DNA of 31,419 bases from a virus: the IMG/VR virus record IMGVR_UViG_3300044961_000404, positions 1 through 31,419 of that record; one strand, given 5' to 3'. This document shows, piece by piece, positions 7,419-20,020 of this stretch. Both the position numbers and the translations under genes were made by a program. A model generated the notes under the pieces. It made no database searches. It saw nothing but the letters and a program-made list of their open reading frames with translations, and was not told where the DNA came from. Each line of letters opens with the position of its first letter. Position 1 is the stretch's first letter.

Positions 7419-7636
7419 TTTTGCCCCTGCCCTGAGCCGAGAGTGGGACGCGAATCCGCCGGGTACGCGGAAAGTTCGGGCGGTGCGCTGGATATGCCGG
7501 GTCCGGTGAGCGGACTAGCCGACCACGGCGGCGCCATTAAGGCCGAATTGATCGATCCCGTAGGCGAGTTGCCAAAGCCGGCTTGGCCGATCATGCCAAA
7601 AGGAACACTGGGGCCGGACGATCCGCGCGCTCCCAT
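7415..7636 (-). CDS. small Pro/Ser/Gly-rich hypothetical protein
   Basis: A 73-residue ORF rich in Pro, Ser, Gly and Ala, with no recognisable domain. Support is mainly contextual: the start follows the stop of the preceding gene by one base, and the stop overlaps the next start as ATGA, so it fills its slot in the operon exactly. Probably disordered. Function unknown. Confidence 0.6.
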   Translation of the reverse strand: MGARGSSGPSVPFGMIGQAGFGNSPTGSINSALMAPPWSASPLTGPGISSAPPELSAYPADSRPTLGSGQGQK

Positions 7637-7637
7637 G

Positions 7638-7868
7638 CTAGAGTCTCCCGATCTGCCTCATGACCATCGCCAAACGCTGAGATGGGCTGAGGATCTGCCC
7701 TGGCCGCACGGCGCTTTGATAAATACCGCCCTGCAACTGCTGATCCTGCATCTGGTTCATTGCGCTTTGCGCCGCATCGCGCAGCTTGAGGCTTTCCAGG
7801 ATTTTTCCATAACCAATGCCTCCGGTTTGGCCGGTGGCGCTGCCGCCGCCAGCCCCGAACGATGCCAT
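7638..7868 (-). CDS. small phage protein with RLAMxMR C-terminal motif
   Basis: A 76-residue protein. The ATG at 7868 was chosen over one 18 bp upstream because GGGAGGTGA lies 4 nt before it, and this start lies beyond the previous stop. A Gly-rich N-terminus is followed by a Gln-rich helix (AAQSAMNQMQDQQLQGGIYQ), and the protein ends SPSQRLAMVMRQIGRL. The protein encoded just upstream ends SPAERLAMAMRSAGR, so the two share a C-terminal motif. Function is unknown; the position suggests a minor virion component. Confidence 0.7.
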   Translation of the reverse strand: MASFGAGGGSATGQTGGIGYGKILESLKLRDAAQSAMNQMQDQQLQGGIYQSAVRPGQILSPSQRLAMVMRQIGRL

Positions 7869-7872
7869 AGCG

Positions 7873-8457
7873 TCACCTCCCGGCACTTCTCATCGCCATC
7901 GCCAACCGCTCGGCCGGTGAGTATTCTGGCCGCGCCGGGCGAGGGGAAGCTGTAGAAAACGTTGGCGCATTTAAGGTCTCGCTGCCGGTTCGGCCGCCCG
8001 CCACGCCGGTCGCTCCGCCTCCTGGCGACACAAGATCTTTTATGACTTGAGCCGCCGCCCCACCCGTAGTGATTGTGTCAGCGAAGTTCTTCGGGTTTTG
8101 GAATGGGTAAGCCAACGCATTCTTCAATGATTCAATTGAGCCAGAGGCTAGCGTACCCAAAATGCCGAGGTTGCCGCCGCTAGAAAGCGTCGGGCCAAAA
8201 AGAAGCCCCCCCTGGCCACCCGGTATCAACCCGGATGTAAGGCCGCCACTAAAACCGCCGCCTAAACCTGGAGTCGCCAAAAGGCCGCTCGATGGGGCCG
8301 CTCCGGGAATCGCACCGGAGGTCATCGGCGCGCTTATTAGCGTAGCATTGCTACCAGTAGCGCCCCCTCCGGTTAGCGCGCCGCCGCTTAGGCCGCCGCC
8401 GCCTCCTCCGCCGGCGGCCGTTCCGCTTATCCCGAGTGTCTCGAAAATCCCTGACAT
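7873..8457 (-). CDS. Gly-rich structural protein with RLAMxMR C-terminal motif
   Basis: A 194-residue protein. Residues about 12-100 are low-complexity Gly/Ser/Ala with runs of Gly, followed by a more ordered part (about 105-150: SIESLKNALAYPFQNPKNFA). The C-terminus (SPAERLAMAMRSAGR) matches the end of the next, smaller protein. Gly-rich proteins of this size are common next to podovirus tail and ejection genes, but no defined family is recognised. It lies 12 bp after the 260-residue gene. Confidence 0.7.
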   Translation of the reverse strand: MSGIFETLGISGTAAGGGGGGGLSGGALTGGGATGSNATLISAPMTSGAIPGAAPSSGLLATPGLGGGFSGGLTSGLIPGGQGGLLFGPTLSSGGNLGILGTLASGSIESLKNALAYPFQNPKNFADTITTGGAAAQVIKDLVSPGGGATGVAGGRTGSETLNAPTFSTASPRPARPEYSPAERLAMAMRSAGR

Positions 8458-8469
8458 GCCAACCCTCCC

Positions 8470-9252
8470 TCACTTCGAGGTTCCTGCGGTTACCTGACCG
8501 CCGCCGCCAGTCGCTGTTCCTATCGCATTAAGCAGGTACGAAAGCAGCTTGAACGGGTACTCTTGCCGCAATTCCGCGTTGGTGCGGGCGGCATCTAGTT
8601 CCGTTTGGCGCTGGCTTTGCTCAAGCGTACCAACCCCCATCAGTGATTGACCGGGCGCTTCGATGGCCGCTTGCAGCGCTGGGATGTTCGCGGCAGCCGC
8701 GAGTTGATTGGCCCGCTCCGCCTGGTAGTTGTTGCCATAAATTTGACTTGCGAGGTCGGCGAGATTTTGGCCCAGCTGAAACTGGCTGTACTGCTTGTGC
8801 TCGTCCTGCGCGGAGCCACCAAATCCACCAGCCTGCATCGCCTGGACCATGTTTCCGGGGGCGATTGCCTGCTGGTATTGATTGGTCAAAGCGCGAGTCG
8901 CAGCGTCGTAAGTGCCGCTTAGATAGGGATTGCTCTCCGGGTGCAAATAATCGCCAGCGAGGGTCCTTCTCGCCTGTTCAACGCCGACCCCGGCAATGTC
9001 GGCCGATGTGTCAGCGGACCTGCGGAGGTACTCCATGGCCGCCTCCTGGTCCGGGCCGAAACCGGCAATTTGCTGTCCAAGGCCCTCGTCGAACGGAATG
9101 AGATTGAAACCCTCCCCTAAAGGCAGCAATTTGCCGGTTTTTGCATCGAAGCTACCGGGCGCTACCAGCGAGGTTGCCGTTCGTAAGCCTATCTCCGCGT
9201 ATGGGCGAGCCCACGCCGGCAGCGATGTGGTAGTGCTGCTTCTCGATCCCAT
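8470..9252 (-). CDS. tail-associated or internal virion protein
   Basis: A 260-residue, Ala/Gln-rich, largely helical protein. The centre has the pattern SNPYLSGTYDAATRALTNQY and GNMVQAMQAGGFGGSAQDEH, which I recognise as recurring in phage virion proteins encoded beside podovirus tail genes. The C-terminus is a hydrophobic helix followed by a Gly-rich tail (LSYLLNAIGTATGGGGQ). The start is one base after the stop of the GNAT-like gene. The exact role is unknown; ejection or internal virion protein is inferred from position and composition. Confidence 0.75.
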   Translation of the reverse strand: MGSRSSTTTSLPAWARPYAEIGLRTATSLVAPGSFDAKTGKLLPLGEGFNLIPFDEGLGQQIAGFGPDQEAAMEYLRRSADTSADIAGVGVEQARRTLAGDYLHPESNPYLSGTYDAATRALTNQYQQAIAPGNMVQAMQAGGFGGSAQDEHKQYSQFQLGQNLADLASQIYGNNYQAERANQLAAAANIPALQAAIEAPGQSLMGVGTLEQSQRQTELDAARTNAELRQEYPFKLLSYLLNAIGTATGGGGQVTAGTSK

Positions 9253-9253
9253 C

Positions 9254-9805
9254 TCACAATTCCTTCACGAGCCGGTATTCTACCAGACTCACGCCATGCT
9301 TCTCCATCCGCCTCGCCCACCCCTTCCGCGAAGTGCCCCACTCCCAGCTCGTAAAACCACGAGCCCTGGCCATGTCGTCGAATTCGGATATTAGGGCGTC
9401 GGTGATATCCGGCCCCCAAACCCCGAGCCACACAAACCACGTCAGCGCCAAGCCGATGAAGGGGTCCACTTGCGGATAGCACACTAGCAGCCCGCGCGCG
9501 TATTCGGCTTCAGCGCGAACGTCGTGAGCCACGAAGCACTCCACGAGATTGTTGCCAGCCAGGCCCTTTATGATCTCTTGGCGGACGTGCTCGGGCAGCC
9601 AGTGCGAGCGCACGGCATTCTTCTTCCGCAAGTGAATGAGCTCCTGCTTCATCCACGGCCAAAGAGCTGCCAGTTGCTCAATGCGATTGATGCGACAGAT
9701 ATGCAGCCCGTCGCGACCGCAGCCCATGGCCCACCCATCCAGCCGATGAGTATGGCGCAACGCTTCGCTTACGGATCCTGCTGCGATATTTGGATCAAGG
9801 GACAC
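9254..9805 (-). CDS. GNAT-fold-like phage protein (T7 gp13-like role possible)
   Basis: A 183-residue protein. Its layout resembles the N-acetyltransferase fold: LAALWPWMKQEL in an N-terminal helix, a middle strand region (VECFVAHDVRAEAEYARGLLVCY), an amphipathic helix, and a C-terminal end (RARGFTSWEWGTSRKGWARRMEKHGVSLVEYRLVK) like the beta-bulge end of GNAT proteins. The canonical acetyl-CoA loop (Q/R-x-x-G-x-G/A) is not evident, so activity is doubtful. Phage T7 gp13 and similar tail-cluster proteins have a GNAT-like fold with a structural role. One base separates it from each neighbour. Confidence 0.6.
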   Translation of the reverse strand: MSLDPNIAAGSVSEALRHTHRLDGWAMGCGRDGLHICRINRIEQLAALWPWMKQELIHLRKKNAVRSHWLPEHVRQEIIKGLAGNNLVECFVAHDVRAEAEYARGLLVCYPQVDPFIGLALTWFVWLGVWGPDITDALISEFDDMARARGFTSWEWGTSRKGWARRMEKHGVSLVEYRLVKEL

Positions 9806-9806
9806 G

Positions 9807-10487
9807 TCAGGTCCCCTCGTTCGAGCGGTACAGCGTGGCGCTCGGCCGCGTCACGCCGATGTGGCCGGCAAGGCGTGGCATTTCCATTTGCGGCTGCGAT
9901 CCTATCACCTCGCCGACGCCAGACACAACGTGAAACACCACCTCCGCCGTCAACGTGGTCGCCGGAATCTCCGCGATTGTTTCGACGCGGCCGGCCTGCC
10001 CCAGCTCCTGCGTCGCTCTGGCTATTTCGACATTGGTAACCGCATCGCGCACGATCCACGACGCGGACCCGCTCACGAGCTGCCTGGCGTCGATCCAGCC
10101 GCTGAGCACGTACTGATCGCCGCCAGGCACGACAACGAACGGGTCGCTCACCGCCTCGGCCGTCACGGGGCCACCGGTCGTGTAAAATCCCCTGCCACCA
10201 CCCCAGCCAATTCCATCGAGCAGGCCCATGCCGGGGCCGATGTTCCAGTGCGTGGCGGGGCGTTTGATGTCAGAGTCTGGAATCAGATTGCGGACCCCTT
10301 GCTGCTGGATTAGCCAGTTGATTGCCGCGCGCATTGGGGCCAACTGCTGCTGGATGTACACGACCAGCGCGTGCTCGAAGTGACTTTGCAGCTGCTGATT
10401 GTCACCGATGAGGCCGGCATCGCGGCCGCCGCCGCGCGACAAAGTCGGCGGCTTTGGCGGCGTAGCCTCTGGCACGAGCTCCGGCAT
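9807..10487 (-). CDS. virion surface protein, beta-sandwich-like C-terminus
   Basis: A 226-residue protein in two parts. The N-terminal 65 residues hold a helical segment (LQSHFEHALVVYIQQQLAPM) of the kind that attaches fibre proteins to a tail. From about residue 80 onward there is a beta-rich region with alternating hydrophobic residues (DPFVVVPGGDQYVLSGWID, TAEVVFHVVSGVGEVI), like a carbohydrate-binding jelly-roll domain. It starts with a 1-bp overlap (TAATG) after the gp10-like gene. A tail fibre or tail accessory protein is a reasonable guess; no receptor-binding motif is visible. Confidence 0.6.
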   Translation of the reverse strand: MPELVPEATPPKPPTLSRGGGRDAGLIGDNQQLQSHFEHALVVYIQQQLAPMRAAINWLIQQQGVRNLIPDSDIKRPATHWNIGPGMGLLDGIGWGGGRGFYTTGGPVTAEAVSDPFVVVPGGDQYVLSGWIDARQLVSGSASWIVRDAVTNVEIARATQELGQAGRVETIAEIPATTLTAEVVFHVVSGVGEVIGSQPQMEMPRLAGHIGVTRPSATLYRSNEGT

Positions 10488-11962
10488 TAGACATCTCCCG
10501 CTGGCGAGATTTGCACCTGGTAATCGGCGATGGCAACGTCATCGTCACTCTCGAACTTCAGGCATTGCAGTCGTGCCGTGTTGAGGCAATTGAACCAGCC
10601 GTCAGCGGATAATTCTACGGCCGCTTGGGCAACGAATGGTGATCCGGGAGAGTAGGCGTTGAGCGGCGTCATTCTCGGCGTACCATTGAGTATGTTGTAG
10701 CCTGGACGCACGCGCGACAGTTGGTACATATTTTGCCGGTCCCCAAGCGCGCCCGTGGTAAAAAAGGACCCCGGGCTCGCTCCCTGCCCGGTGCGCGCGT
10801 ACAAATAAAGGGCGTTGTCATTCAGGAAGATTCCCTGCGTGTGGCCGAAATCCTGCGATGAGACGGTGCCGGGGGAGATCCCGTCCGTGGCCATTTGCAC
10901 AACGCGATTCCCCTTGGTCCAGTTTCCGCTTCGCACATCCAGACAGACCCATTCGTCCGCAGTCTGATCGGAGTCGACCGCGCCTTCTGTGGTCTTGTAG
11001 TGCCAAAAGATCAGCGCCCGCGCCTGATCGAATCGGCCCACTACCCATGGCGCGCCGGCCTCGGCGCGCCTCTCGAAGAACCAATTGCGATGCTGATTCT
11101 CTAGCTTCGTCACCGAGAATCCATCGAACCGATACCAATCGTCTGGGCCCAGGAAGTAATGAACATCATCGACGGAAACGATGGCCTCCTGACTCACGGC
11201 CCCCACTTGTCGCGAAATTTCAGTAAAAGACCAAATTAGCGGGGGGCCGACCAGTTGACCGATGAAAATCGCCTGCGCCTTGTAAAGCACCATCTGCGAG
11301 CGCAGCGCGCGCGCTGCGACGATTGGCCCCGGCGTCTGTGACAGCCTGCCATTGACGCTCAGATTGGCTATGCTTCCCGATGCCCAAATGAACGGGTTGG
11401 TGCTGGACCACCAACGGTTCGACCACTCATCCACCTCTCCGGCCGCGTTGAGATTGTCGCCGACCATGAAGAGGCTGTAATCGGACGACGCCAGAATGCT
11501 GGCGTAGGGCGGTGAATCCGGAACATCCTGCCATGCCACCGTTGGCGTCAGCGTCAAGGCGGTCAGGGTGGCGTAAAGCGGCTTGCGCGTGCCATCCGCC
11601 GCGAACACCAAATTATTGTAGTAGGCGAATCGCCAGCGCACGGGGCGCCCGAATTGCGTGGGTGGCAGCCCCTGCGTCCCCCAAGACGCCGGCGAAGCGG
11701 GACTCAGCGCCTGCGAGAGAACCACAGATAAATCGTCGCGCGTCCCCGCGATTACCATTTGGACCCCTTCCGGCGTGGTGACTACACATGAGCCAAGGCA
11801 GGGGCCCGTCAAGCTTTCCGTTACCTGGTGCAGCGCCGGCAATGTCCTAAGCCCACGCGGCGTGGGGTACATATCGTTCCCGTCGATCAGGATCCCCGGT
11901 GTGATGATGTCCTGATCTGGGGCGAAACTGCGAACGGGGATTGGTCGCATCGGCTGCGGCAT
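10487..11962 (-). CDS. P22 gp10-like tail hub (packaged DNA stabilisation) protein
   Basis: A 491-residue beta-rich protein with repeated blade-like segments (RWRFAYYNNLVFAADGTRKP, SDYSLFMVGDNLNAAGEVDE, DDVHYFLGPDDWYRFDGFSV, TADEWVCLDVRSGNWTKGNR). This fits the beta-propeller tail hub proteins of podoviruses, such as P22 gp10 (472 residues), which sit below the gp4 adaptor and close the portal channel. It follows the gp4-like gene by 7 bp, the same order as in P22-like and related genomes. Assignment rests on length, fold pattern and order. Confidence 0.75.
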   Translation of the reverse strand: MPQPMRPIPVRSFAPDQDIITPGILIDGNDMYPTPRGLRTLPALHQVTESLTGPCLGSCVVTTPEGVQMVIAGTRDDLSVVLSQALSPASPASWGTQGLPPTQFGRPVRWRFAYYNNLVFAADGTRKPLYATLTALTLTPTVAWQDVPDSPPYASILASSDYSLFMVGDNLNAAGEVDEWSNRWWSSTNPFIWASGSIANLSVNGRLSQTPGPIVAARALRSQMVLYKAQAIFIGQLVGPPLIWSFTEISRQVGAVSQEAIVSVDDVHYFLGPDDWYRFDGFSVTKLENQHRNWFFERRAEAGAPWVVGRFDQARALIFWHYKTTEGAVDSDQTADEWVCLDVRSGNWTKGNRVVQMATDGISPGTVSSQDFGHTQGIFLNDNALYLYARTGQGASPGSFFTTGALGDRQNMYQLSRVRPGYNILNGTPRMTPLNAYSPGSPFVAQAAVELSADGWFNCLNTARLQCLKFESDDDVAIADYQVQISPAGDV

Positions 11963-14348: not shown

Positions 14349-15224
14349 TCACGACGGAGCGTTCCAGGTCGATACGACGATGGTGCCAAAGTCCTGGTTG
14401 TTAAACCGGGTCTTTTTCAAGCCCCAGATCATGCCGGCGGTGATTCGCAGCTGATTGCCGGCATCGAGGAGCTCTTCGTACCAGTTCACCTTCAGGGCTT
14501 CGCCGCTTTGTGCCTTGTCCGCGCCGCAGGCAAGAGCCGCGGCTTGGGCGCCGACGAAAACGGCGCGACCAACATTGGTGGTTCCCGCCGCCGGCGCGCC
14601 GAGGCACGTCGGTGCAGCCACCATCGTTCCGCTCAGGGGATCGAGCACCATGTTCTGCGAGCTATCCCCCCACGGGCAGCGCGTGTCCTGGTGCAGCACG
14701 ACGTTGTTGATCATCCCGATGGCCCCGGTGAAAATCGGATTGCCGGTGACTTGTCCGCCCTGCAATGCGGCTCGATAGATGTCACCCCACTCGCCCTGCG
14801 TGTAGTTCGTTTTGAGATCGCGCACCTGCTGCGCCGTCAGGAACAGCACGCCTGCCACCTCGATGCCCTTGATCAACACCGGCTTGATGGGGAAGATCAG
14901 CTCGCCCTGCGCCTTGGCGACGATGGCCGGAATCAGGTCCACCGAAAACACATCGGCGCTCGTAAGGGCGGCTTCATTGGCGGCGCCGCCAGCGAGAATC
15001 CAGTGATCCGCGTCGGGCGCAACCGGCGCCTGGAGCCCGGTGTAGGCGACGTTGGTCTGTGCAGTGTTGCCGGCCAGCTGGTTGAGAAGGCCAACGTCCA
15101 TCATGTCTTTCCACCAGTTGGCCAGACCGGTCTTGGCCGCATCGCGCATCGAATAGGGAACTCTCTGCTGCGACATGCGGCCAACGAGGAGCATCGCCTG
15201 CCGCTGTTGATTGATTACCAATGT
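14349..15224 (-). CDS. major capsid protein, N4 gp56 family, exon 2
   Basis: Downstream exon of the split major capsid gene; it contributes 291 residues after splicing. The sequence begins TLVINQQRQAMLLVGRMSQQ and continues RVPYSMRDAAKTGLANWWKD, the conserved core of N4 gp56-type capsid proteins (Pfam DUF4043/Phage_capsid_3 as I recall it). Further on, GNPIFTGAIGMINNVVLHQD is another family hallmark. Without splicing this segment would have to begin at a TTG with no Shine-Dalgarno and would lack the N-arm, so it is an exon and not a complete gene. Joined to exon 1 it gives 383 residues, close to the 401 of N4 gp56. Confidence 0.9.
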   Translation of the reverse strand, partial: TLVINQQRQAMLLVGRMSQQRVPYSMRDAAKTGLANWWKDMMDVGLLNQLAGNTAQTNVAYTGLQAPVAPDADHWILAGGAANEAALTSADVFSVDLIPAIVAKAQGELIFPIKPVLIKGIEVAGVLFLTAQQVRDLKTNYTQGEWGDIYRAALQGGQVTGNPIFTGAIGMINNVVLHQDTRCPWGDSSQNMVLDPLSGTMVAAPTCLGAPAAGTTNVGRAVFVGAQAAALACGADKAQSGEALKVNWYEELLDAGNQLRITAGMIWGLKKTRFNNQDFGTIVVSTWNAPS

Positions 15225-15279
15225 CTTTACTGTTCAGCGCCCGTCGCCAACGGACACCCGCTTCTTTTCATGAAGCAGC

Positions 15280-15879
15280 TCAACATTTCTGCTGAGAACG
15301 GACCATATCATCGTCCACAGAACGAGGACGCAACGCGCTTCCGGTGACAGTCGCTTTCACCGTACTCCCTTTCGGGATGGCCTCTGAACCTTCCAGATGA
15401 GGACAAATTCCACCGTTAAACTGACGCCCCATATTGCAGTTGTGGCAAAGCACCCGGAGAGTATCCGGGAAGTTGTTGTCGATGATCCACAGAAGGAACG
15501 GTAGTCCGCTGTGTGGGTGCTGCGCTCCACGCGCCTTGCCACCATCGTTGTTGACATGATCGATGGCAAGAAATTGAGTAGTCCGCTCACTACAGCAAGA
15601 ACATCCACCACCGTAAGCAGCAACGATGGCACGCCGAAGGATACGATACTTCGGCTTGGTCCTAGTCTCGGCGTGTTTGCGTGTGAGTGATCTCCAGCGT
15701 TCGTAATTTGCTTGGCGCCACCGTTCGGTTCGTGCGGCATTGCAGGGCTTGCAGAAGTGTCGGCGGATATGCGGCTTCTCTCGATCGACCATTGGGAAGT
15801 CGACGAGTGATTTGGTTTCGCCACAGTCTTTGCAGAGTCGATTGCTCATCTGGCTTGGCTGCTGATTACCTTCGTTCAT
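15280..15879 (-). CDS. HNH homing endonuclease encoded in the intron
   Basis: A 199-residue protein. The N-terminal zinc site has Cys16/Cys19 (CKDCGETKSLVDF) and Cys43/Cys46 (HFCKPCN). A second Cys cluster (CSCC, 93-96) leads to the HNH core AIDHVNNDGG (Asp107, His108, Asn111), and the helix that completes the fold ends LRVLCHNCNMGRQFNGGICP. This is a common phage HNH endonuclease type, which cuts intronless alleles and copies the intron by repair. The last 40 or so codons run through the intron core, and the stop lies in the P9-like hairpin. The Shine-Dalgarno is weak, so expression is probably low. Met11 is an alternative start. Confidence 0.9.
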   Translation of the reverse strand: MNEGNQQPSQMSNRLCKDCGETKSLVDFPMVDREKPHIRRHFCKPCNAARTERWRQANYERWRSLTRKHAETRTKPKYRILRRAIVAAYGGGCSCCSERTTQFLAIDHVNNDGGKARGAQHPHSGLPFLLWIIDNNFPDTLRVLCHNCNMGRQFNGGICPHLEGSEAIPKGSTVKATVTGSALRPRSVDDDMVRSQQKC

Positions 15880-15940
15880 GGTTTTGGTTTTAATATCACC
15901 ACACGGTCAGGCGTCCCAGCAGTTCACGTTGTTTGCTCAC

Positions 15941-15969
15941 GCCGGTTACCCGACGTAGGGACCACATTG
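15941..15969 (-). promoter_or_regulatory. 5' splice region with P1/P10 guide and P2 hairpin
   Basis: The first 29 intron bases hold the guide sequence. CAAUGU (15969-15964) is complementary to the start of exon 2, GUCC (15962-15959) to the end of exon 1, and the hairpin GUCGG-GUAA-CCGGC follows. Unspliced message reaches an in-frame TAA here, after seven intron-encoded residues. Confidence 0.8.
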
Positions 15970-16245
15970 ATCCTGGAAGTAGCTGTACGGCACTTCCTGC
16001 CCGGCGATCGGAGCATCGCCGAGAACACCGGGGCCCTGCGGATTGGTAATCAGATCATACTTTACCTGATCGCCGGGGCCCTTACTGGGTTCGTCGAAAT
16101 ACTGAACGAAGTTCGATTGATCCCTGGCGTTCAGCCCCACCGCCATGAGCTTGGCAGCGGTGCATGACCGCAGGGCCTGAAAAAACACCCGATGGCTGTA
16201 AATGACAACAGCGGTCGGGTCATTCGCTGGAACGACGGTTTCCAT
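15970..16245 (-). CDS. major capsid protein, N4 gp56 family, exon 1
   Basis: Upstream exon encoding the first 92 residues (METVVPANDPTAVVIYSHRV through EVPYSYFQD). The pattern GPGDQVKYDLITNPQGPGVL followed by GDAPIAGQEVPYSYFQD matches the N-terminal region of N4 gp56-like capsid proteins, where GD-x-I-x-F-x-L, then G-D-x-x-L-E-G-x-E and F-x-x-D occur in this order. Read through into the intron, the frame adds only QCGPYVG and stops. The ATG at 16245 has GGGAG about 10 nt upstream. The gene has its own candidate promoter in the 383-bp gap upstream. Confidence 0.9.
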
Positions 16246-16628: not shown

Positions 16629-18260
16629 CTAAGGCGCTATGCGCGCTTTCGCATCCGGAACGCGGTCTATCCACGCGGTAGTGGCGGCATCGCCACTACA
16701 GTTGGCAACTTGCCCAAAACACGATTCGTAGTCTCCTAGCCACGTCGCTGCGCCCGGACATGAAATCGGAGAGCTTACTGGTATCGGCGTTCCCTGCCAC
16801 GGCCCGCTGTGGGCGTAACAGAAGAACTGCACTTGCGCCGCGCCCGAACCAAAATTTTGACAAGTCCCGGTTTTTACGTCGCCAAACGTGTCACTATATC
16901 CGGGCACCGGCGTCCCGAACGCCATGGGCGTCGGTGTGCTCAGGCACGGCGCGTTGCAGAGGGTCAGGTTCGGGCGCCCGCGGCGGTCGTTGGCGGGCGG
17001 GCAAGTGGGGGTTGGGGTTGTCGTAGCGGTCGCCGGCACGGCCGCCGTATGCGTGCGCGTTTGGGTCGGGGTGGGTGTTCGCGTCGGTGTCAGCGTAGGT
17101 GTCCTAGTGATCGTATTCGTAGGCGTGTTGGTTGCAGACGCGGCTGGGGTCGACGTGGCGGTCGGCGCCTCGCCGCAGGAGCTACCGGGTTCGAGTGGGG
17201 CGCCGATGCAAGCTTCTCCCGCATGCCACGTGCCACCAGAAGCGTCGCACGTCGCTTCGTCGATAATCGTCTGGTTGCTCCCGACGCACGTCGCGCCGTC
17301 GCCGAAATCCCCAGCGCAGCAACCGACTTCTGGTGACGCTACGCACGCCCCAAGCAGCTCGGAGCACTGAGCGCCGAGGAGCCAGTCGCTACCCGGGAGG
17401 CATCCATCAGGCCCGGATAGGTCCTCACAAGATACTTCCCGCTGGCAGCATCCAGATCCAGCGACGCAAGTATCCCCGACGCAAGTTTCGTTTACATGAA
17501 ACACCCCCGGCGGAGCGCAATTATCGCCCGGCCCCATCGGCGAGCAGGCCCCTTCCCCCTGGCAACAGCCATATGCCGGCAGCGGCGTTGGCGTTGGCGT
17601 CTGCGTCGGCAGAGGCGACGGCGTCAACGTCACGCAATTCCCCGGACCCACCCCGCCTTCAGCATTGCAAAGCGCATTAGGAAAAAACGTTCCGCCAACG
17701 GAATCGCAAAGGGACTCCGTAAGCTGCGCGCAGTTTCCTTCGGTGTCCTCGCAGCAACTATTCGGCGTCTGGGTCGGCGTGGCCGCTGCGACCGTGATGG
17801 AGCCGTCCTCCGTGGAGCACGACACGGGGCCGCCGGAGTCCTCTAGCACGCAGCCACCCGAGACAGGCGGAGAGCAACCACTAGCGTCGAACTCCACGGG
17901 GCTAACGCCAATGTTATCTCCATTAAACGACACAACGGCCAGCTCGGCATTGGGTACGTTGATCGGCGTCACGCAAGCAATCGCAATGCAGATCTTTCCC
18001 GCGACTAGCGTATTCGCCGAGAACAAACACCCGGCGCTACTGGCGTCAGAGCCAATCAGGACCGTACCAACGGAGACAATCGAAATGTCGTAGCTCAATC
18101 CCAGATCGTAAGCGTTGATCGTGCTGGAATCATCGACCCGCACGGATACGTTCGCTGAGCCACCCAGGGCTAGGGTCTGCGTCGCTGGGTCAATGCTAAC
18201 CGTCACCGCAGCGGCAGTGTTCGCTAACAGCGCACCGAGCGCCACGATCAGCCGTCTCAT
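16629..18260 (-). CDS. secreted cohesin-like / Cys-repeat / Thr-Pro protein
   Basis: A 543-residue protein. The ATG at 18260 was chosen (over one 39 bp upstream) because it overlaps the LamG gene's stop as ATGA and gives a Sec signal peptide, MRRLIVALGALLANTAAA. Residues about 19-160 resemble a cohesin-type beta-sandwich (VSIDPATQTLALGGSANVSV, NAYDLGLSYDISIVSVGTVL). Then come several Cys modules of the CC-x-C-x-C-x3-GG-x-C type (for example SCCEDTEGNCAQLTESLCDS), separated by Thr-Pro linkers. A long Thr-Pro linker and a Cys-containing C-terminal domain of about 110 residues end the protein. That last part is homologous to the end of the 245-residue gene product upstream. This is host-like extracellular architecture and unusual in a phage head cluster. 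Function unknown; adhesion or surface decoration is a guess. Confidence 0.8.
   Translation of the reverse strand: MRRLIVALGALLANTAAAVTVSIDPATQTLALGGSANVSVRVDDSSTINAYDLGLSYDISIVSVGTVLIGSDASSAGCLFSANTLVAGKICIAIACVTPINVPNAELAVVSFNGDNIGVSPVEFDASGCSPPVSGGCVLEDSGGPVSCSTEDGSITVAAATPTQTPNSCCEDTEGNCAQLTESLCDSVGGTFFPNALCNAEGGVGPGNCVTLTPSPLPTQTPTPTPLPAYGCCQGEGACSPMGPGDNCAPPGVFHVNETCVGDTCVAGSGCCQREVSCEDLSGPDGCLPGSDWLLGAQCSELLGACVASPEVGCCAGDFGDGATCVGSNQTIIDEATCDASGGTWHAGEACIGAPLEPGSSCGEAPTATSTPAASATNTPTNTITRTPTLTPTRTPTPTQTRTHTAAVPATATTTPTPTCPPANDRRGRPNLTLCNAPCLSTPTPMAFGTPVPGYSDTFGDVKTGTCQNFGSGAAQVQFFCYAHSGPWQGTPIPVSSPISCPGAATWLGDYESCFGQVANCSGDAATTAWIDRVPDAKARIAP
16901..17087 (-). repeat. 187-bp direct repeat, copy 2
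   Basis: Base-for-base identical to 19549-19735 and in the same orientation. It encodes the Thr-Pro linker end and the start of the C-terminal domain (PANDRRGRPNLTLCNAPCLS and onward). Sequence outside the block diverges abruptly, although the proteins remain homologous downstream. Confidence 0.95.
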
Positions 18261-19033
18261 AACCCACCGAGCTCCAGCTCGCTGAGGGCGCGGCTCCACA
18301 CGCGCACGTCACGCATCCGCCCGAAGAAGGGGTCGTAGGGACCGCCCTGCGTTGGCGGCTCGGCTCCGACGTAGATCACCTGATCTCGGGTGATCGGGCT
18401 GAGCTGCGCGGCCATCTGCTTGCGGCGCATCAGGACGCCGTTGACGTACAGCCGCAGATCGAGGCCGTCCACCGTGACGGCGATGATCTTCTCTGCGTCC
18501 AGTGGCCACTCGAAGAACGTGAATACAGTCTCGTTCATGTTGTCCACTGGATTCACCGGCTGCGTCGGCGGCACGGAACCGACGTTCGCCTGCGCAATCA
18601 CGTTGACCACACGTGGCCACTGGCGCATGGTCACGCCGATCGAGAAGCGCGGCAGCAGTGGCGACTCGCCGCCGAGATAGAACAGCACCTGCGTCGAGGA
18701 TGCCAGCGATCCCAGCGCGACGCGAAACTGTACCGTGAACGGCGGCTCCAGCGTTGGCGCAGGCACCCTGAGCCACGACGGCCCGCGGCGATGGAACGTG
18801 CCGCCCGCAGGACCAAACTCGATATTGTGCGCGCCGGCAACGGCTGCCGTTAGCGAGTAGTCTAGCAACAGGCTGTGGTCTACGCCAAGACAGTCGATGT
18901 TGTCCAAGCGCGCCGCGAGGCTCCGCAACTGTCCAGCGATCTCCGGGACCGTCAGTGGCTGACCCTGCACCAGGGTCGCCGGCAGGAACAGCGCGGCACC
19001 GGTCAAGCCAACGACACACTGGCGCAGGGTCAT
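18257..19033 (-). CDS. secreted LamG/concanavalin-like lectin domain protein
   Basis: A 258-residue protein with a Sec signal peptide (MTLRQCVVGLTGAALFLPAT then LVQGQ). The remainder fits a LamG/concanavalin A-like jelly roll: PFTVQFRVALGSLASSTQVL as inner strands, EKIIAVTVDGLDLRLYVNGV with the usual 'DG..L.LYVNG' hallmark, and the closing GRMRDVRVWSRALSELEL, typical of LamG-3 type domains. Such domains bind glycans or proteins. GAGGTGA lies just upstream of the ATG. Its stop overlaps the next secreted gene's start. It could decorate the virion or the infected cell surface; a signal peptide favours export from the cell. Confidence 0.8.
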   Translation of the reverse strand: MTLRQCVVGLTGAALFLPATLVQGQPLTVPEIAGQLRSLAARLDNIDCLGVDHSLLLDYSLTAAVAGAHNIEFGPAGGTFHRRGPSWLRVPAPTLEPPFTVQFRVALGSLASSTQVLFYLGGESPLLPRFSIGVTMRQWPRVVNVIAQANVGSVPPTQPVNPVDNMNETVFTFFEWPLDAEKIIAVTVDGLDLRLYVNGVLMRRKQMAAQLSPITRDQVIYVGAEPPTQGGPYDPFFGRMRDVRVWSRALSELELGGL

Positions 19034-19282: not shown

Positions 19283-20020
19283 TTACGGAGCAACCGGAGC
19301 CACCGCGTCCGGAAGCCGATCTACCCACGCATTGGTTGTTGCCGAGCCCGCGCACGACGACACTTTTCCGAAGCATAGCTCGAAAGTCCCTTCCCATGTC
19401 GCACTGCCCGGGCATGAAATCGGAGTAGTGACCGGAATCGGCGTCCCTTGCCACGGACCGGCGTGCGCGTAGCAGAAAAATTGCACCTGCGCCGTCCCGG
19501 TGGATTGGCAAGTGCCGGTCTTGACGCGGCCGAATAGATCATTGAAGGCGGGCACCGGCGTCCCGAACGCCATGGGCGTCGGTGTGCTCAGGCACGGCGC
19601 GTTGCAGAGGGTCAGGTTCGGGCGCCCGCGGCGGTCGTTGGCGGGCGGGCAAGTGGGGGTTGGGGTTGTCGTAGCGGTCGCCGGCACGGCCGCCGTATGC
19701 GTGCGCGTTTGGGTCGGGGTGGGTGTTCGCGTCGGGCTATTGGTAAATGTGAAGGTTGGTGTTCGGGTTGGGCTGCGGGTGCTGGTATGACTGAACGTTG
19801 GCGCGGACGTTTGAGTGATGGTTGGCGTGCGCGTGGGCGAATTGGGGATGGTATTTGTAGGCGTGTTCGTGGGGGACGGCGCCGGGGTATGGGTCTCTGT
19901 CGGCTCCGGTGTATCGGTCGGCGTTTGCGTTGGTTCCTCGGTTTCGGTTGCGGTTTGCGCTAGCGCTACACCTGCCAGGAACGACAGAGCAATGACTGTC
20001 AGTATCCAGCGCTTCGTCAT
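19283..20020 (-). CDS. secreted Thr-Pro-rich protein with Cys C-terminal domain
   Basis: A 245-residue protein with a clear Sec signal peptide (MTKRWILTVIALSFLAGVAL, then AQ). Residues about 23-125 are a continuous Thr/Pro/Ser-rich linker of TPT, TNTPT and TRTPT units. The last 115 residues form a Cys-containing domain (LTLCNAPCLSTPTPMAFGTP, KTGTCQ, VQFFCYAHAGPWQGTPIPV, ISCPGSATW, CFGKVSSC) homologous to the end of the 543-residue secreted protein. Part of the match is DNA-identical over 187 bp. AGGGAGAAGG precedes the ATG. Thr-Pro linkers normally hold surface domains away from the cell wall. Function unknown. Confidence 0.8.
   Translation of the reverse strand: MTKRWILTVIALSFLAGVALAQTATETEEPTQTPTDTPEPTETHTPAPSPTNTPTNTIPNSPTRTPTITQTSAPTFSHTSTRSPTRTPTFTFTNSPTRTPTPTQTRTHTAAVPATATTTPTPTCPPANDRRGRPNLTLCNAPCLSTPTPMAFGTPVPAFNDLFGRVKTGTCQSTGTAQVQFFCYAHAGPWQGTPIPVTTPISCPGSATWEGTFELCFGKVSSCAGSATTNAWVDRLPDAVAPVAP
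19549..19735 (-). repeat. 187-bp direct repeat, copy 1
   Basis: Identical to 16901-17087, 2648 bp apart, same orientation, in the 245-residue secreted protein gene. Perfect identity next to diverged flanks points to recent gene conversion or recombination between the two paralogous ends. Confidence 0.95.

Follow-up and report, generated by a model that had tools for sequence, protein, structure and literature searches.

The window (the whole stretch of DNA that was analysed, 31,419 nucleotides of IMG/VR record IMGVR_UViG_3300044961_000404) carries on its minus strand a major capsid protein gene in two parts. Exon 1 (15970..16245) has 92 codons for residues 1-92 and exon 2 (14349..15224) has 291 codons plus a stop, encoding residues 93-383. 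Both were matched by the Pfam profile PF13252 (Phage_capsid_3), with E-values of 7.7e-5 and 1.9e-44 respectively, and the matched stretches adjoin each other, exon 1 covering positions 2-84 of PF13252 and 4-88 of phrog_334, and exon 2 positions 86-372 and 89-377. This bears out the initial annotation, which had assigned the two reading frames (92 and 291 residues) to one capsid protein; when spliced, the resulting 383 aa protein matches PF13252 over its whole length (2-84 plus 86-372 of 376 positions). The exon 1 frame, when continued into the insert, meets a stop after 7 more codons, giving 99 aa in total. Among solved structures, a profile of the capsid family finds major capsid proteins (8h89, E 8.8e-150).

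Neighbouring genes in the window include those for a P22-type portal, a terminase and a DnaB helicase, and the owner of the capsid gene is an uncultivated tailed phage with a P22-like portal and a PF13252 capsid. The same gene and intron are present in a second IMG/VR record, IMGVR_UViG_3300045912_000705, identical or at 99.9% identity. Elsewhere in the window, positions 16730-17087 and 19385-19735 are 86% identical over ~360 nt; these stretches sit in two neighbouring minus-strand ORFs (16629-18299 and 19283-20020) with many threonine-proline repeats, and the pair looks like a duplicated domain.

The exon junction had been placed between GAT (15970) and ACA (15224), and this position was supported by the comparisons with uninterrupted proteins. 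The joined protein aligned without gaps across the junction to six uninterrupted homologues, and residue D92 at the junction is invariant in all of these sequences. Moreover, when the 672 stop-free joins within 30 nt were scored against a profile built from intron-less homologues only, GAT|ACA shared the top score of 529.9 bits. The protein evidence alone leaves ~4 nt of play in the position; within the top-scoring group the choice was made by the U...G rule of group I introns together with P1 and the 6-bp P10. The expected joined-exon sequence is TACTTCCAGGATACATTGGTAATC.

The insert between the exons is a group I intron of 745 nt on the minus strand (15225..15969), its first base a C after the exon U and its last base a G. 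The two pairings that the initial annotation had used at the splice sites both hold: P1 (15959..15973) is formed by exon GGAU (15973-15970) and the guide GUCC (15962-15959) with U.G at the splice site, and the P10 strand CAAUGU (15964..15969) pairs over 6 bp with the first bases of exon 2, ACAUUG (15224-15219). Downstream of P1 lie P2, of 8 bp with a GUAA tetraloop (15938..15957), the 5' strand of P3, CAACGU (15926..15931), whose partner is GCGUUG at 15336-15331, a helix in which relatives show changes at both bases of 4 of the 6 pairs, and P4 (15860..15921; 15921-15917 with 15864-15860) with P5 inside. P7 (15301..15382) pairs GGCCAU (15382-15377) with AUGGUC (15306-15301) and encloses P7.1 (15376-15367), P7.2 (15362-15342), the 3' strand of P3 and P8 (15329-15313). 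It is followed by the P9 hairpin CUCAGCA-GAAA-UGUUGAG (15279..15296), whose 3' strand contains the UGA stop of the endonuclease ORF described below. Judged by these elements of its sequence the intron is a group I intron of the IA type, with P7.1 and P7.2 present.

The search with the Rfam group I model, which had been proposed as a check, gave a mixed outcome. At the gathering threshold no Rfam match was obtained in the window; a focused search of 901 nt with RF00028 did return a match, of 21.5 bits (E 0.005), which is below the gathering score of 50, a curated reporting cut-off and not a biological feature. In that match P7 was misplaced, being put at AAAGACU inside the start of the endonuclease gene, a placement ruled out by the covariation of GGCCAU/AUGGUC in nine introns (see below). 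We also used a covariance model of the P7-P9 region (R2) made from seven introns, with the window and its nearest sister, L197, left out. Over the whole 31-kb window this model had a sole match, at 15390..15278 on the minus strand, with 98.8 bits and E 7e-23. Chance is thus ruled out for the window intron, since a model free of the window matches here only.

The intron contains an ORF of 199 aa (15280..15879, minus strand; an alternative internal start at the ATG at 15849 is possible) for a putative HNH homing endonuclease of the beta-beta-alpha metal, EndoVII-like type. It was matched by phrog_2255 (E 6.5e-16) and by phrog_1035, endonuclease VII (E 5.6e-11), while Pfam Endonuclease_7 scored 15.9 bits, below its cut-off of 23.6. 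Residues C93, C96, D107, H108, C145, N147, C148, C159 and H161, among them the DH, N and zinc cysteines of the beta-beta-alpha metal motif, are invariant in 13 relatives. For most of the domain the predicted structure has pLDDT values in the 90s, but they fall to ~40 in a disordered tail (168-199); the best Foldseek matches of this model include HNH-type Cas9, Hpy99I and EndoVII, all weak (E 0.12 or worse), and a PDB sequence search with the HNH protein returned a chance-level ribosomal match only.

The ORF occupies intron positions 91-690 in the P6 loop, with its start in P5, and codes across the P4 and P6 strands (NQQPS). Past the HNH domain it crosses P7, P7.1, P7.2, P3 and P8 into P9, where it stops, thus remaining open across the whole P7-P9 core (15280-15390, an overlap of ~111 nt on the 3' side). 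The ORF of the L115b intron ends just before P7, showing that the family does not need this tail. Known introns likewise overlap their ORFs with the core, a phenomenon termed 'core creep', with tabulated overlaps of up to 81 nt (PMC3073962); the overlap in the window fits this description while exceeding that maximum, and it could hamper folding of the RNA during translation.

Homologous introns were found nine times in seven phages, the window included: one each in the window, L002, L197, L082 and L146, and two each in L115 and L199. The phages L197, L082, L146, L115 and L199 were found by IMG/VR scans for capsid relatives. L002 is MW202512.1 (Podoviridae sp. ctDrO704), in which the capsid gene (26027-28181) is split by a 627-nt intron with an HNH ORF; in this GenBank 'complete genome' the intron is unannotated, exon 1 and the intron being entered as small hypothetical ORFs and an 'icea protein' beside a short capsid gene. 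With the Rfam group I model the MW202512 intron scored 47.5 bits (E 5.7e-10), and those of L115 and L082 22.4 and 21.1 bits, respectively. One of the L199 introns (2468-2731) is 264 nt long and has no endonuclease ORF, while the same capsid gene also has an HNH intron; the short form may be ancestral, from before an ORF was acquired, or may have arisen by deletion. When the whole records of the seven phages were searched with model R1, which was built from those introns, introns were found in the capsid gene only. Among prokaryote genome contigs there was no close relative of the window clade, the capsid matches being four distant ones, and an alignment of eight capsid sequences offered no searchable stretch.

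All nine introns start after U, end in G and have a P1 with a U.G pair, and eight of them have a P2 hairpin with a GNRA loop. P10 has 6 bp in the window and L199b and 3-4 bp in the other introns, a length within chance. In the core alignment, on which helices P3, P4, P5, P6, P7, P7.1, P7.2, P8 and P9 were marked, 97.8% of the cells in 40 core pairs are standard-paired, a percentage biased upward as some pairs were read off the same sequences; sliding the partners by 1-3 columns lowers pairing to 30-43% (maximum 42.7%). Two-sided changes were seen in 29 of the 40 pairs, with 80 compensatory cells, and none of 500 shuffles gave a value as high. The upward bias is no explanation for these changes, nor for the score of the leave-out model. 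P3, P7.2 and P9 are almost wholly changed among the nine introns with pairing kept; in P7, the window and L197 have C-G in place of U-A, and L115b has A-U in place of C-G. The P7.1 and P7.2 hairpins are present in every intron, and seven of their eight pairs vary on both sides. Taken with the 98.8 bits of the leave-out model, the covariation upholds the original assignment of the 745 nt to a group I intron.

Insertion sites were placed on a codon alignment of the capsid genes, using the numbering of the window. The site after codon 92 (phase 0) is occupied in the window, L197 and L082, and that at codon 137 (phase 1) in L146 and L115a; the others are after codon 29 (phase 2; L002), at codon 129 (phase 1; L199a), at codon 262 (phase 2; L199b) and at codon 343 (phase 2; L115b). 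There are thus six sites in one capsid gene, and every splice restores the family protein in register. L082 shares the site of the window though its capsid, 40% identical to that of the window, falls in a different clade. For each of the six sites there are alleles without an intron; the nearest pair is formed by L082, with an intron, and L080, without, whose capsids are 87% identical, and L080 and other intron-less relatives retain the uninterrupted site TACTCGGAT|GATGTG. In the closest clade of the window, ~5 of 19 distinct capsid genes have introns, a rough figure as some contigs repeat.

The HNH protein of the window is 52% identical to that of L197 and 34% to that of L082; L146 and L115a share 75%, and other pairs 29-49%. 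HNH proteins at the same site are closest to each other within the window clade (window/L197 and L146/L115a). Free-standing HNH relatives adjoin unsplit capsid genes in KLEP18, RHph_Y1_10, L198 and L233, which suggests that these endonucleases circulate around the capsid locus both inside and outside introns. A search with RF00028 over 43 records having HNH relatives gave few matches, and most such HNH genes appear free-standing.

The reading that we hold with high confidence is that a mobile group I intron interrupts the capsid gene, would splice at GAT|ACA and probably spread by homing. The alternative to which we give some small weight, while considering it improbable, is that the intron is dead, its RNA no longer splicing, so that the capsid is made as two pieces or the genome is defective. 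Exon 2 does have a possible TTG start of its own (ORF 15221..14349), the Rfam score of this intron is low and the endonuclease ORF overlaps the catalytic core; but all core helices are intact, the G.U and C-G replacements in P7 keep its pairing, P1 and P10 are intact too and the HNH ORF is open. Furthermore, read-through from exon 1 ends after 7 codons, and a second contig has the same intron.

The remaining explanations are of a far lower order of probability, and the evidence given here refutes them. Free-standing relatives beside unsplit capsid genes, such as those of KLEP18, RHph_Y1_10, L198 and L233, are what one would point to in arguing that an HNH gene was inserted between two real genes with no intron involved, but the insert falls within a single protein family match, its group I core covaries with eight others and is matched by model R2, and the 264-nt intron of L199 exists without an HNH ORF, making this reading barely tenable. 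An assembly chimera or a sequencing artefact might be feared in a metagenomic contig; the second contig at 99.9% identity and the sister introns at homologous sites in other records render it exceedingly unlikely. Inteins, group II introns and translational bypass also leave split genes, yet an intein is excluded by the in-frame stop that exon 1 meets within the insert, the Rfam searches of the window gave no group II match, and the core covaries as that of a group I intron; we give these options next to no credence.

Returning to the mobile group I intron, the transcribed RNA would fold into the P3-P9 core, with GNRA loops in L2 and L9, and exogenous guanosine would attack after the U of GGAU in P1. 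The exons would then be joined at GAT|ACA, with the help of P10, yielding an mRNA from which the normal capsid protein of 383 residues would be translated. Ribozyme splicing followed by ordinary translation would explain together the split gene, the conserved RNA and the frame restored at all six sites. As a rule few phage products are as abundant as the capsid protein, so efficient splicing of its mRNA is needed. In a mixed infection with intron-less relatives, the intron-encoded HNH endonuclease would cut their capsid genes close to the insertion site, and the intron would be copied in as the break is repaired; the sister introns at six sites could have arisen as a single lineage homed repeatedly and also inserted ectopically. 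Both the splicing of the 745-nt intron and the cutting and homing by the HNH enzyme we infer from sequence, the latter on the basis of the enzyme type, the sites shared by diverged phages and the intron-less alleles.

Introns at or in capsid genes were also met in two other records, each of which had been retrieved solely because it contains an HNH relative at a different locus. In L204 (IMG/VR 3300031593_000093, 7463-10556) a LAGLIDADG group I intron splits the major head protein of another family, phrog_9953, at 75/76 (exon matches 10-75 and 76-326). In L060 (IMG/VR 3300049811_000205, 26853-30081) a group I intron of 33.3 bits with a LAGLIDADG ORF lies directly upstream of the coding region of an SU10-type major capsid protein (PF17236, E 1.4e-73), the first exon of which was not located. 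These two cases hint that capsid genes are more widely favoured by introns. It is possible, though we consider it rather unlikely, that the capsid gene is a preferred battleground of mobile introns in tailed phages, in which intron endonucleases cut the intron-less capsid genes of rivals at several conserved sites and carriers come out ahead in mixed infections, selection having thereby filled the six sites and unrelated capsid families as well.

The related introns at six sites, of which some phages have two in the one gene, offer together with the intron-less alleles a natural series for studying the spread of group I introns to new sites, and for testing whether intron endonucleases act as weapons between co-infecting phages. 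They also serve as a warning about annotation: in viral metagenomes, and in at least one complete genome in GenBank, split capsid genes are wrongly recorded as a short capsid gene accompanied by small unknown ORFs.

The novelty suggested in the initial annotation stands in part: in the open-access library searched there was no report of introns in the PF13252-type capsid family, nor of any capsid gene interrupted by introns at many sites, while introns in phage capsid genes as such are known. In the mycobacteriophage LittleE the major capsid gene, gp13, contains a group I intron whose splicing was shown by RT-PCR, and Tuc2009 has an intron in a capsid subunit gene (PMC3706429). What the window and LittleE gp13 share is the interruption of a phage major capsid gene by a group I intron with an endonuclease-like ORF inside, and the existence of relatives that lack the intron (PMC3706429). 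LittleE, however, involves another capsid gene and phage group and a LAGLIDADG-like ORF on the opposite strand, with one intron at one site (PMC3706429), whereas here the ORF is HNH and on the same strand, and nine related introns occupy six sites. An ORF that sits in the P6 loop and extends into the core is a feature shared with the T4 td intron and I-TevI, which differ in being of the GIY-YIG type, in the thymidylate synthase gene and in an overlap of 20 nt (PMC3073962), against ~111 nt on the 3' side in the window.

A precedent for more than one group I intron in a phage gene is Staphylococcus phage Twort, with three in one gene according to Landthaler and Shub 1999 as cited in PMC6669764; other genes are concerned there, while here it is the capsid gene, with different sites in different phages. 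Jug phages have 18.5 group I introns each on average (PMC12363816). A related 3' core is found in the psbA introns of cyanophage S-SRM01, which were matched by model R1 with 44.3, 36.0 and 29.4 bits, but these lie in a photosystem gene and have a more distant core. In that genome group I introns interrupt psbA (L222, 207378-210278), the three R1 matches falling within 1.3 kb and one of them (209136-209240) in a stretch without an annotated gene. Mirusvirus introns similarly carry homing endonucleases, HNH included, and are concentrated in virion morphogenesis genes including that of the MCP, but they are spliceosomal, belong to eukaryotic viruses and are not ribozymes (PMC12768974). The intron endonuclease of PhiPA3 is reported to mediate interference between co-infecting phages (PMC11620839), and a similar role is possible for the endonuclease of the window. 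The single intron is therefore a known type of element; what is new is one capsid gene serving as a multi-site intron hotspot.
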